From Litchfieldia alkalitelluris (GTDB taxonomy: Bacteria; Bacillota; Bacilli; Bacillales; Bacillaceae_L): a DNA stretch of 64,000 bases. The stretch is taken from assembly GCF_002019645.1 (NCBI RefSeq), contig NZ_KV917374.1, forward strand, positions 95,148 to 159,147, given 5' to 3'. The notes beneath the pieces were generated by a model. The model saw nothing but the letters and a program-made list of their open reading frames with translations, ran no database searches and had not been told where the DNA came from. Both the position numbers and the translations under genes were made by a program. Shown here piece after piece: positions 19,250 to 28,725 of this stretch; positions within the stretch are counted from its first letter, which is position 1, and every line of letters starts with the position of its first letter.

Positions 19250-20215
19250 TTAATGGATTTTAAAACTAGAAGCATCTATAAATTCAATTTCAGGATACTT
19301 TTTCAGATCCTCGACAAGCTTAAATAGAGCATTGTCTTTTTGTTTAGCTTCTATCATACAGTCCATTTCATCAACACTACCCTTCACATTTGAAAGAAAC
19401 CGCATGAACATAGAATCATCAATATAATCGGCATGTGCACGAAATTCTTTTTCATTTCTTGGACTGGAAATATGCATCTTTAAAGGTAACCTTGAGTGTG
19501 ACCATGTTCCTACGACTCTCTCCCATTCGCTTTCCCAATCCGGAACTTCATGATGGGCAAGATGGTGATGGTAATCAAAAACAATCGGTACCGAAAGCTT
19601 TTCACATAAATATAACGTATCAAGTAGGGTAAAGGTAGTATCATCATTTTCGAGCATTATCATCTTTTGAATGGGAACAGGAATATTCCCCCAGTTTTCA
19701 ATAAATTGTTCTAGCGCTCTATCTTTGTCATTGTATGCTCCCCCAACATGAATCACACAACGATGTTCACGGTCGATGTTCATGCCGCGTAATAACGCCT
19801 CATGAATCATTAAATTTTTAATCGATTGTTTGATGATCTCCTTCTGTTCTGTTGTAAATACTACAAAGTGATCTGGATGGAAACCAACCCGCATCGAGTG
19901 TTCCTTGGTGAACTCACCAATTTCTTCGAGAATATGTTTTAGTGGTCGCATAAATTTCCAATCGGACACTTCCTCATGTCCAGCCAAAGGAATTAATCTG
20001 GAGCTCAGCCTAAAAAAATGGATATCGTGAGCTGCATTGTATTTTAACAACCTAAGACAATTTTCAAGATTGCTAATCGCAATGCGTTCAAGCTTACTAA
20101 TAGCAGCCTCTCGGTCTTTTATTTTTTGAAACTGAGCAACCGTCATGGTTTGGGAAGGCGAACTGTTTTGTAGATTCATACTCATTGCTACATAACCTAA
20201 TCTTACAATTGTCAT
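19250..20215 (-). CDS. uvsE: UV DNA damage endonuclease UvsE
   Basis: This 321-residue TIM-barrel UV damage endonuclease has a RLGYVAMSM start, HFFRLSSRLIPL, MRVGFHPDHFVV, CVIHVGGAYNDK, LENDD and FDYHHHLAHHE. The His, Asp and Glu residues of these segments bind metal ions. It nicks DNA 5' to photoproducts. GAGGTG precedes the ATG. In B. subtilis uvsE (ywjD) is elsewhere in the chromosome, so its place beside ydbS is a local rearrangement. A 52-bp repeat array lies just upstream. Confidence 0.9.
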   Translation of the reverse strand: MTIVRLGYVAMSMNLQNSSPSQTMTVAQFQKIKDREAAISKLERIAISNLENCLRLLKYNAAHDIHFFRLSSRLIPLAGHEEVSDWKFMRPLKHILEEIGEFTKEHSMRVGFHPDHFVVFTTEQKEIIKQSIKNLMIHEALLRGMNIDREHRCVIHVGGAYNDKDRALEQFIENWGNIPVPIQKMIMLENDDTTFTLLDTLYLCEKLSVPIVFDYHHHLAHHEVPDWESEWERVVGTWSHSRLPLKMHISSPRNEKEFRAHADYIDDSMFMRFLSNVKGSVDEMDCMIEAKQKDNALFKLVEDLKKYPEIEFIDASSFKIH

Positions 20216-20349: not shown

Positions 20350-21072
20350 AATTCAGACAGCTTGAGGGGCCAAAGAGGGAAGGCTGTCCGAAGTTGGTTG
20401 AGGTTCAGACAGCTTGAGGATCAAAAGAGAGAAAGCTGTCCGAACTTGGCTGAGGTTCAGACAGCTTGGGAGACACAAGAGAGAAAGCTGTCCGAACTTG
20501 GCTGAGGTTCAGACAGCTTGAGGATCAAAAGAAAGAAAGCTGTCCGAATTAGCTAAGGTTCAGACAGCTTAAGGATCAAAAGAGGGAAAGCTGTCCGAAC
20601 TTGGATGAGGTTCAAACAGCTTGAGGGAGAACACAGATAAAGCTGTCCGAACTTAGCTTAGGTTCAGACAGCTTGAGGGAGAAAACAGATAAAGCTGTCC
20701 GAACTTGGCTTAGGTTCAGACAGCTTGGGAGACAAAAGAGAGAAAGCTGTCCGAACTTGGCTGAGGTTCAGACAGCTTGGGAGACACAAGAGAGAAAGCT
20801 GTCCGAACTTGGCTGAGGTTCAGACAGCTTAAGGATCAAAAGAGGGAAAGCTGTCCGAACTTAGCTTAGGTTCAGACAGCTTGAGGGAGAACACAGAGAA
20901 AGCTGTCCGAACTTGGCTGAGGTTCAGACAGCTTAAGGCTCAAAAGAGGGAAAGCTGTCCGAACTTAGCTTAGGTTCAGACAGCTTGAGAAAGAAAACAG
21001 ATAAAGCTGTCCGAACTTGGCTTGAATTCAGACAGCTTGAACGAGAAAACATGTAATGCTGTCCGAACCTTG
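20350..21072. repeat. 52-bp tandem array 1, fourteen units
   Basis: TTCAGAC recurs at 20352, 20404, 20456, 20508, 20559, 20611 (TTCAAAC), 20663, 20715, 20767, 20819, 20871, 20923, 20975 and 21027. The period is 52 bp throughout except for one 51. Each unit is a dyad: half-sites TTCAGACAGCTT and AAGCTGTCCGAA around a 17-bp middle, then an 11-bp linker. The half-sites hardly vary. The middle occurs in a few distinct versions (such as GAGGATCAAAAGAGAGA, GGGAGACACAAGAGAGA, GAGGGAGAACACAGATA). The array fills the gap between mscL and uvsE. Confidence 0.95.
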
Positions 21073-21125: not shown

Positions 21126-21608
21126 CTAACTAATATTAATCTTTACTGTAGGCTCCTCCTTTGCAATTGGGAAGGACTGATCTAGTATGGTTGTACAGTT
21201 GGGGCAACGACTGGCTTCTGCTGGGATAGCCATGGAGCAAGCTGGACATTGTTTAGAAGTATAAGAGGATGGAGAACTACGTAGTTTATTTACTTGTTTG
21301 ATGGTAATAAATGTAGCAAACGCAACAATTCCAAAATGAAAAACTGTATTCAGAAAATGACCATAATTTATCGTTGCAGCACCTGCCTCCTTTGCCTCAG
21401 ATAGCGAAGCATAACGGTGTGTAGATAAATTTATGTACAAATTCGAAAAATCGACCCTTCCTACAAGCAAACCTATGGGTGGCATAATAACATCTGTTAC
21501 TAACGAATCGACAATCTTTCCAAAAGCTGTCCCGATTATAACCCCTATTCCCATATCTATGACATTTCCTCTTATTGCAAATTCCTTAAATTCTTGTATC
21601 ACTTTCAT
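21126..21608 (-). CDS. mscL: Large-conductance mechanosensitive channel with C-terminal zinc ribbon
   Basis: This 160-residue protein has a normal MscL N-terminal half: [28 protein letters not shown]1, a periplasmic-type loop and TM2 ending near residue 108. Instead of the usual C-terminal helix it carries CPAC (121-124) and CPNC (135-138), a rubredoxin-like zinc ribbon. GAGGAGTG precedes the chosen ATG. The longer open frame reaching into cshA is not coding. The channel releases solutes on hypo-osmotic shock. The role of the ribbon is unknown. Confidence 0.92.
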
Positions 21609-26399: not shown

Positions 26400-27491
26400 T
26401 TAAAATGTATACTTAATTTTTTGCTTCTCTTCATGACGCTCTATCGCAAGTTCAACAAGTGTTTCAATTAATTTCGGATATGATACGCCAGCTTCCTGCC
26501 ATAATAATGGGAACATACTAAACGGAGTAAAACCAGGCATCGTATTCACTTCATTCATTAGTACTTTGCTGTCCTTCGTTAAGAAGAAATCTGCTCTTAC
26601 AAGACCAGAGCAATCTAATGCTTTGAATGCTTTTATTGCTACTTCTTGGATTCGATTATGTTCATCCTCAGTAATCTCAGCCGGAATGACTAGTCCCGTA
26701 TCGCCATCTTCATACTTGGCTTTATAATCGTAAAAATCTTTCTTAGGAATAATTTCCCCGACCACTGAACAAATTGGCTCATCATTGCCTAACACACCAA
26801 TCTCAACTTCTCTTCCAATGATACCCTCTTCTACAATGACTTTACGGTCATATTCAAAGGCTTCGCGAAACGCCACTGCTAAGCTTGCACGATCTTGGCA
26901 TTTACTAATACCAACGCTAGACCCTAGGTTTGCAGGCTTTACAAAACACGGGTAACCCAGCTCTGTTTCGATTTTATCATATGCAGCTTCAGGAGCCTTT
27001 TCCCACTCTTTTCGAATGTAAGAAACATATTTAGCCTGTTCAATCCCTGCTTGAGCGAAGACATTCTTCATCACCACTTTATCCATTCCTGCTGCAGAAG
27101 CTAATACACCATTCCCCACATAAGGAATGTTCAATAACTCTAATAAACCTTGAACGGTCCCATCCTCACCATTTGGACCATGAAGTAACGGGAAAATAAC
27201 ATCTATTGAACTTTCTTCCTTCACGTTGGTAAGCCCAGTTGGGAAAATTTCTTGGTTAAGTGATACTGGCGAAACAACATCTCCACCATCTGTTAACTTT
27301 AATTTCTCCACTTCCTCAACAGGGCCAAGTAGTTCAGTTCCTCGCTTCCACTCACCAGTTTCAGATATATATATTGGATGTATTTCATATTTTGATAAGT
27401 CTAGGGCCTTGATTACTGCTTTCGCGGTTTGCAATGACACTTGGTGCTCAGCAGATTTCCCTCCATATAATAAGCCTAATTTGATTTTCAT
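26400..27491 (-). CDS. ddl: D-alanine--D-alanine ligase
   Basis: This 363-residue ATP-grasp ligase has [61 protein letters not shown], and VRADFFL with [14 protein letters not shown] near the C-terminus. The ATG at 27491 has AGGGGGAAG upstream; ten extra residues would be added by an upstream start without such a site. It is probably co-transcribed with murF, about 105 bp away. Confidence 0.95.
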
Positions 27492-27810
27492 AAACTTCCC
27501 CCTAACACACTTCTTCATATTTTCCTATTGTATCACTAACATAGCTTATTTAAATAGGATGATTTTAAAACATCATCTATTTAATTTGATTGTCTATTTT
27601 GTTACTGTTTTTCACCTATTGAACCCTTCTTTTATGAACATATTTAGTATATGTTTTCACTAGGCGTTTGGGCATGTCTACCGTAAAAATAAATTAGGTT
27701 GTAAGCATTCGCTATAGTTCACTTGTCGAACGTCCCGGCGCGGTCTCACTTTTCCGACTTCTAACAACTTCTGATGCCAAGACCCTAAATTTGTCCGATT
27801 TCAAACCAAC

Positions 27811-28315
27811 TTCGGACAGATTATGTTGCCGAATGCTTAAAGCTGTCCTAATCTTGCCACTTCAGACAACTTCTGCAACCAAGAACCTAAAGCTGTCCGA
27901 ACTCTTGCCTACTTCAGACAACTTCTGCTGCCAATTGCTTAAACCTGTCCGAACTCTTGCCTACTTCAGACAACTTCTGCCGCCAATTGCTTAAACCTGT
28001 CCGAACTCTTGCCTACTTCAGACAACTTCTGCCGCCAATTACTTAAACCTGTCCGAACTCTTGCCTACTTCAGACAACTTCTGCCGCCAATTACTTAAAC
28101 CTGTCCGAACTCTTAACTACTTCAGACAGCTTCACCGACCAATTACCTAAAGCTGTCCGAACTCTTGCCTACTTCAGACAACTTCAGCAACCAAGAACCT
28201 AAAGCTGTCCGAACTCTTGCCTACTTCAGACAACTTCTGCCGCCAATTACTTAAACCTGTCCGAACTCTTGCCAACATTCAGACATCTTCACCAGCCAAG
28301 CACAAAAAGCTGCAC
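27811..28315. repeat. 52-bp tandem array 2, ten units
   Basis: TTC(A/G)GACA recurs at 27811, 27861, 27913, 27965, 28017, 28069, 28121, 28173, 28225 and 28278. The period is 52 bp apart from the outermost steps. Units read TTCAGACAACTT, a middle such as CTGCCGCCAATTGCTT, then AAACCTGTCCGAA or AAAGCTGTCCGAA, then an 11-bp linker. Spacing and both half-sites are those of array 1, so this is the same family. More degenerate units reach back to about 27750. Confidence 0.93.
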
Positions 28316-28368: not shown

Positions 28369-28725
28369 TTATTCGGCAAAATGACAAACCTCTAATGCAT
28401 TTCCATCTCTATCATAAAATCGGAACCAGTTTACATCATCCTCTTTTTGGATTTCTTCGACTTTTACTCCATTGTCTAAAAGATGCTGGTAAACAAATTC
28501 TATATCTGAAACGTAAAAGTTAAAAAAGGCTTCTTTAAGTGGTTCGAAATCAACTGTTTCTGCTTGGCGAAGAGTCAGTGGTGTTTCACCGATATTTAAT
28601 GCTGCATAATTTCCACGTTCCCACCTTAATGAGAACTTTAAAACTCCTGTATACCATTCGATTGCTTCGTTTAAATTATGTACTGTTAAAAACACTGTAT
28701 CAATTCTCTTAAACAATTGCTCCAT
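28369..28725 (-). CDS. VOC (glyoxalase-fold) family protein
   Basis: This 118-residue protein is of the vicinal-oxygen-chelate superfamily: RIDTVFLTVHNLNEAIEWYTGVL at the N-terminus and FYDRDGNALEVCHF at the C-terminus with a likely metal Glu. The reaction cannot be told. It follows repeat array 2 and is monocistronic. Confidence 0.8.
   Translation of the reverse strand: MEQLFKRIDTVFLTVHNLNEAIEWYTGVLKFSLRWERGNYAALNIGETPLTLRQAETVDFEPLKEAFFNFYVSDIEFVYQHLLDNGVKVEEIQKEDDVNWFRFYDRDGNALEVCHFAE

Follow-up and report, generated by a model that had tools for sequence, protein, structure and literature searches.

Intergenic arrays of an inverted octamer on a 52-bp frame in the Litchfieldia alkalitelluris chromosome, putative phased sites for a DNA-binding protein

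ParB or Noc binds a contiguous palindrome, the plasmid that carries sopC encodes its own ParB, and eukaryotic satellite DNA with CENP-B boxes keeps a short protein-binding word within drifting tandem monomers. In the passages of PMC6238139 that treat plasmid F, sopC consists of twelve 43-bp tandem repeats with inverted-repeat binding motifs, a unit length near four helical turns. Repetitive extragenic palindromes (REPs) are described in passages of PMC3116915 as intergenic inverted pairs present in hundreds of copies, with several families per genome and some ordered tandem arrays. The bcr repeats of the Bacillus cereus group are likewise interspersed families in Bacillus relatives, and in the relevant passages of PMC3733652 bcr1 is listed as MITE-like and not as a phased array. 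Finally, the TAACTGA repeats of Beggiatoaceae, cyanobacteria and Bacteroidetes are sporadic, largely intergenic copies of a short fixed word lacking a proven binder, in the passages of PMC4679880 concerned.

The arrays described here are nearest to sopC in design, having tandem units with inverted motifs, and to REP or REPIN sequences in genomic habit, being high-copy, intergenic and built of inverted pairs as REPs, BIMEs and REPINs are; tested defining features of both nevertheless fail. While sopC is a single plasmid locus, the family described below as family A comprises dozens of chromosomal arrays with half-sites 25 and 11 bp apart and no extra ParB, and this splitting of the half-sites also separates the arrays from the contiguous palindromes of ParB-parS and Noc-NBS. 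Unlike REPs, the arrays share a frame of about 52 bp over several motifs, their half-site is no palindrome and their spacers are mostly locus-specific; the octamer at their core is not self-palindromic, and a GTAG tag after it or a CTAC tag before it occurs in 10 of 30 linkers. The distinction from bcr1 rests on its description and not on sequence, whereas TAACTGA repeats differ in being direct 7-bp repeats that in one genome lie mostly just upstream of start codons, with inverted pairs rare (PMC4679880, in the same passages). The likeness to CENP-B satellites lies in the kept short word, the arrays differing in being bacterial, in having a 52-bp unit and in being dispersed over many loci. No description of such arrays was found in the literature searched, which covered few subscription papers, nor do the passages seen of PMC2267715, PMC3733652, PMC6238139, PMC3116915, PMC4666352 and PMC4679880 describe them. 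Bacterial repeats are usually described by their sequence; here it is the geometry that is conserved, with several words on one frame of about five helical turns and one half-site word keeping that frame across many genera.

The window, by which we mean the whole 64,000-nucleotide stretch analyzed, corresponds to C1:95148-159147 of a 5.43-Mb genome, of which 2.43 Mb was read, and contains two arrays of family A with the following features and flanks.

20352 to 21067, no strand: family A array 1, 14 x TTCNGACA-N25-TGTCNGAA-N11
20433 to 20467, no strand: example of the proposed, putative binding unit with its arms
27759 to 28285, no strand: family A array 2, 21 half-sites in 33/19 geometry, spacers unlike those of array 1, ends degenerate
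19250 to 20215, minus strand: uvsE (UvdE, PF03851), flanking array 1
21126 to 21608, minus strand: mscL (PF01741), the other flank of array 1
26400 to 27518, minus strand: D-Ala-D-Ala ligase gene (ddl), flanking array 2
28372 to 28725, minus strand: glyoxalase-family gene, the other flank of array 2

A first-pass annotation of this DNA had described a single array of 14 units with an exact 52-bp period and both arms in every unit. The 14 units, with 28 half-sites, were recovered, with steps of 52 bp in 12 of 13 cases and of 51 bp in the remaining one, so that the period is not exact throughout; the left arm TTCAGACAGCTT is intact in every unit but unit 6, which reads TTCAAACAGCTT (13 of 14 exact), and the right arm AAGCTGTCCGAA is exact in 12 of 14, with the first and last units one base off. 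That annotation had rightly noted that the middles of array 1 vary among a few types, had overlooked array 2, and had taken a dodecamer as the half-site; across arrays and species only the octamer TTCNGACA is common. Half-site matches with up to two mismatches number 54 in the window, whereas 100 dinucleotide shuffles averaged 6.78 and never exceeded 12. A CRISPR array was rejected as an identification, given that spacers recur within the array and that the genes flanking the arrays in the window are uvsE, mscL, ddl and the glyoxalase gene. Elsewhere in the window, a 170-bp tandem repeat of 2.2 copies (positions 811-1189) lies in a tRNA cluster beside an rRNA operon.

Across the genome, the exact pattern of two 12-bp arms matched 81 times on the forward and 95 times on the reverse strand. 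Searching the 2.43 Mb for chains of TTCNGACA and TGTCNGAA revealed 32 family A chains versus 2 in a reversed-sequence control, and these chains correspond to 28 separate places with 469 paired units, as an insertion, a masked stretch or a gap divides four of them into more than one chain. Within 2.03 Mb, a separate count recorded 32 arrays with 510 units in total, 446 of 478 steps being 52 bp. Eight 20-kb pieces of the sequence read were picked for their exact family A units, and densities are thus unbiased only for 3.94-5.43 Mb and 0-0.40 Mb. By greedy ORF calling, family A arrays are free of overlap with any ORF longer than 150 aa, and not one of the 31 family A loci is fully contained in an ORF of at least 100 aa. 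Among 27 arrays of at least five units with both neighbours called, the neighbouring genes are co-directional in 16 cases, convergent in 7 and divergent in 4. The flanking genes examined encode UvdE, MscL, a DEAD helicase, Ddl, a glyoxalase, UPRTase, a subtilase, an M17 peptidase and an antiporter, and a tie to particular genes was rejected because these flanks are mixed.

The host terminus lies near 3.2 Mb by GC skew, and we could not detect any family A chain in 20 pieces of 20 kb (0.40 Mb in all) spread over 2.24-3.875 Mb. In G292, 20 pieces place the turn of the GC skew between 2.40 and 2.64 Mb, spo0J and noc lie at 4.79 of 4.80 Mb, and family A arrays are found at 2.35 and 2.52 Mb. As there is a gap in the sampled sequence around the terminus here and there are arrays near the terminus in G292, family A follows no general chromosomal pattern, and avoidance of the terminus, on the logic of nucleoid occlusion, was rejected as a general rule. 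Separately, no exact family A unit occurs at C1 2.224-3.948 Mb among the matches listed, and families B, C and D, described below, are present in that interval.

The invariant part of family A is the octamer TTCNGACA in alternating orientation, with starts 33 and 19 bp apart, the spacers being specific to each array. Exact octamers in the 2.43 Mb follow one another from left to right arm at 33 bp 406 times, versus 5 times at 32 bp and 7 at 34 bp, and from right to left arm at 19 bp 413 times, versus 2 times at 18 bp and once at 20 bp; left arms recur at 52 bp 409 times. When each octamer was placed by its neighbours and not by its own sequence, and letters other than N were counted (435 and 448 tiles), octamers diverged from their array consensus at 0.7% (left) and 1.4% (right) of positions, compared with 11% for the middles and 13% for the linkers, so that, within an array, the octamer is roughly tenfold less variable than the spacers. 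The TT two bases past the octamer and the outer linker letters are also constrained, at 1-3% divergence. Together, the divergence figures and the 33- and 19-bp peaks support the earlier suggestion of conserved half-sites with selection on both half-sites and spacing. The identity of the octamer in 29 of 29 array consensuses is partly built in, since the chains were located by it.

The step from right to left arm is stricter than that from left to right, with 11 deviations in 609 versus 29 in 622 (p 0.006), and, because units within an array are not independent, the p-values given for steps, pairing and position 4 are rough. At octamer position 4, the two arms read A-C in 14, G-C in 8, G-T in 7 and A-T in none of 29 array consensuses (Fisher p 0.006, for arrays that are not fully independent), and A-T occurs in 7 of 469 individual units. 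Given the lack of A-T among the consensuses, every pair retains TTCGGACA in one half-site. The linker ends in C or G at both sides in each of the 30 array consensuses compared, with the identical letter at both ends in 27, and this matching of end letters gives the near-palindrome a polarity.

Tandem Repeats Finder kept 190 loci in the 2.43 Mb, with a period of 52 in 46 and of 104 in 13. Seventy-seven loci lie within 1 of a multiple of 52 (52n loci), comprising 31 of family A, 20 of B, 12 of C, 11 of D and 3 others as labelled by simple word counts; 43 of the 46 non-A loci therefore fit three other words, ATTCCC (B), TATGAT (C) and CGGCG (D), and 19 loci of period at least 40 have periods other than 52n. 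The fully read 3.94-5.43 Mb contains 19 loci of A, 16 of B, 8 of C, 8 of D and 2 others. Only 4 of the 46 non-A loci lie wholly within an ORF of at least 100 aa, and 52n arrays make up 1.7% of the bases read. Family B, TNATTCCC, shows the distances 33, 19 and 52 as family A does, its octamer limits having been set to fit the family A frame and its 52-bp period being independent of that choice, while family C has a period of 52 and family D is a direct repeat with 21-bp steps within 104 bp. One example of each is given here.

C1 341396-342013: family B array
C1 208481-209088: family C array
C1 279949-280636: family D array

Family B turned up in 9 of 396 genomes, with multiple matches in six, against one match for its reversed control; family D was likewise matched in 9 of 396. 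In five other species, the family B linker is always 11, with a middle of 24 (G092, G095), 25 (G044, G213) or 26 (G255), and the period is 51 or 53 in some species. Since G044, G092, G095 and G255 have family B without any family A match, neither family requires the other. The words of families B and C may resemble ParB or Noc half-sites, and TTCAGAC may resemble the Neisseria DNA uptake word; neither likeness enters the argument.

Conservation of the 52-bp spacing in other arrays, and existence of the family beyond this strain, had been set beforehand as checks on the first-pass reading, and both were borne out. Scanning named genomes for exact matches revealed 15 stretches in five organisms, Cytobacillus oceanisediminis DE0166, Bacillus sp. 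ISL-55, ISL-41, Chryseobacterium sp. ISL-80 (by record title) and Mesobacillus selenatarsenatis SF-1, and units step mainly by 52 bp in 13 of the 15. The array-bearing records titled Chryseobacterium sp. ISL-80 are L046, L047, L052, L054, L056 and L057, and their title is probably wrong. With the spacing left open (middle 15-35, linker 3-23), the octamer pattern could be recovered from 32 of the 396 genomes scanned in the order, the host included, representing 15 of 135 genera, against one match in total for the reversed control pattern; 26 genomes have at least five matches with both strands summed, and single matches may be chance. Thirty further genomes or records each contributed one locus, chosen for matching the earlier scans, and named records among them may duplicate other genomes; in these loci 33 bp occurs 124 times and 19 bp 125 times, with only 9 and 3 other distances, respectively, within 3 bp. 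G009 contains one array with a 51-bp period. Outside the order, a sample of 398 genomes from the phylum gave just one match, in one genome and of another length.

Presence within genera is sporadic: G229 has no matches and eight other members of its genus have at least 85 forward matches each, and in another same-genus pair one genome has none and the other 24. This would be odd for a core chromosome function. Array 1 gave no blastn match in 72,556 plasmid and 50,697 phage records, a search that arrays with other spacers could escape, and the core pattern at fixed geometry gave no match in viral contigs; a phage or plasmid element was accordingly rejected as an identification.

The constraint on the word and on two distances, the freedom of the spacers, the placement of several motifs on one frame and the non-compensatory changes in the arms together argue for recognition of duplex DNA by a protein, and we consider it fairly likely that the arrays are phased sites for a putative sequence-specific dimeric DNA-binding protein. 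Of the earlier proposal of a phased DNA-protein array or RNA hairpins, selection on sites and spacing thus stands, hairpins do not, and the bound protein is put forward from the pattern of constraint. Helical repeat length at 10.4 bp per turn makes 52 bp five turns, 104 bp ten and 21 bp about two. The putative dimer would sit on the 27-bp inverted pair TGTCNGAA-N11-TTCNGACA, which in the example unit forms the core in the order right half-site, 11-bp linker, left half-site; the pair with the 11-bp linker is taken as the dimer site because the 19-bp step is the stricter and because the linker of family B is fixed at 11. Successive dimers 52 bp apart, or about five helical turns, would face one side of the DNA and could form a cooperative nucleoprotein array, like ParB on sopC of plasmid F. 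The most speculative parts of this proposal are that related proteins with other specificities may read the other half-site families on the common frame, and that the arrays may act on the chromosome, in folding, anchoring or silencing, and not on single neighbouring genes. If protein-bound, the arrays would offer a natural chromosome-wide test of how helical phasing builds higher-order nucleoprotein structure.

ParB-family genes were counted in 34 genomes with and without arrays, and 31 have the expected two; a third is found in G010 and G116, which have arrays, and in G001, which does not. An additional ParB beyond Spo0J and Noc was therefore rejected as an explanation, as none tracks the arrays. 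More broadly, and tentatively enough that we would sooner expect it to be wrong, Bacillales-type chromosomes might carry a satellite class in which half-site words, at least four of them in this genome, occupy one frame of about five turns, each word being read by its own member of a putative family of DNA-binding proteins that builds one-faced nucleoprotein arrays at dozens of loci between genes; such a class would be a dispersed bacterial analogue of centromeric satellites that also draws a dedicated insertion sequence.

Could the same pattern arise from repeated RNA hairpins that serve processing, stability or termination? Pairing between the arms is feasible, and 41-nt consensus units fold more stably than their shuffled versions, with a mean z of -3.9 on one strand and -5.1 on the other. 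Position 4 of array 1 gives G-U on the strand read by the neighbouring genes and A-C on the other, and among eight units from other genomes that were folded, most have their octamers paired, as those of any inverted pair would be. However, units of G010 and G024 fold weakly. In 6 of 29 consensuses, position 10 of the arm reads C-C or G-G and so lacks a partner on either strand (on the plus strand the count is 7), and a compensatory pair occurs in none of the 29. Of 14 testable arrays, 5 have the strand favoured by position 4 running with the genes and 9 have it running against them. RNA structure, moreover, has no need of a fixed linker or a helical period. The hairpins of the first-pass annotation are thus a poor fit and were rejected as the main constraint because arm changes are non-compensatory and strand and gene direction do not agree; we regard them as very improbable. 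Functionless tandem repeats arising neutrally by slippage seem less probable still, to the point of being barely credible. Units are homogenised within arrays, as slippage or unequal exchange would produce, and neutral drift fits the spacers, but the roughly tenfold lower variation of octamers than of spacers inside arrays speaks against it for the octamers, as do the retention of both sub-distances across genera despite spacer drift and the occurrence of different motifs on one frame.

The remaining alternative to a protein-bound array is selfish satellite or REPIN-like DNA, in which sites are kept for an amplifying or moving enzyme that needs them intact and correctly spaced, with no gain to the host. 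Several observations are consistent with it. In four of eight relatives, mscL and uvsE are adjacent without an array, with 46 to 137 bp between the called genes, and in the remaining four uvsE lacks a neighbouring mscL and an array as well; because four relatives keep this gene order without an array, the host lineage probably acquired array 1, and arrays appear to spread. Comparing spacers between arrays, 44 of 435 pairs agree at no fewer than 16 of 28 positions, versus 0.46 expected from shuffled sequences, with three of the 44 representing pieces of one array; for the arrays at 0.58 and 2.22 Mb, the agreement reaches 24 of 28. This excess over shuffled sequences suggests that the arrays share descent. 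As a separate observation, arrays are kept at corresponding loci in ISL-55 and M. selenatarsenatis and in G005 and G007, where units align at about 77-84% and long alignments, comprising flanks and part of the array, at 86-92%. The patchy presence across genomes would likewise suit a selfish element, as would Y1 transposases (PF01797, RAYT and IS200 pooled), found in 16 of 17 array-bearing genomes tested. Against this, PF01797 is also present in 13 of 17 genomes with no array match or one, the RAYT partner expected of REPs is missing in array-rich G099, which has 405 array matches and no PF01797 gene, and the spacers of units at different loci are mostly not shared. As PF01797 does not track the arrays, a REP/RAYT system was rejected, and on balance we hold a selfish origin to be possible and rather doubtful. 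If the arrays are selfish, they would be a bacterial counterpart of satellite DNA whose spread the REP transposase does not explain, and a new mechanism would be needed.

An IS256-family element with a 386-aa Transposase_mut protein also bears on selfish spread. Locating copies by their left end with at most two mismatches revealed six in the genome (L268, L269, L270, L271, L272 and L273), all six of which lie in or beside 52n arrays, a pattern that would favour a selfish reading and that may reflect either targeting or survival in harmless DNA. By family, two of the six go with arrays of A, one with a B-like array that has two copies to one side, and three with D-like arrays. Both insertions into family A lie at the centre of the 25-bp middle and are bounded by 9-bp duplications.
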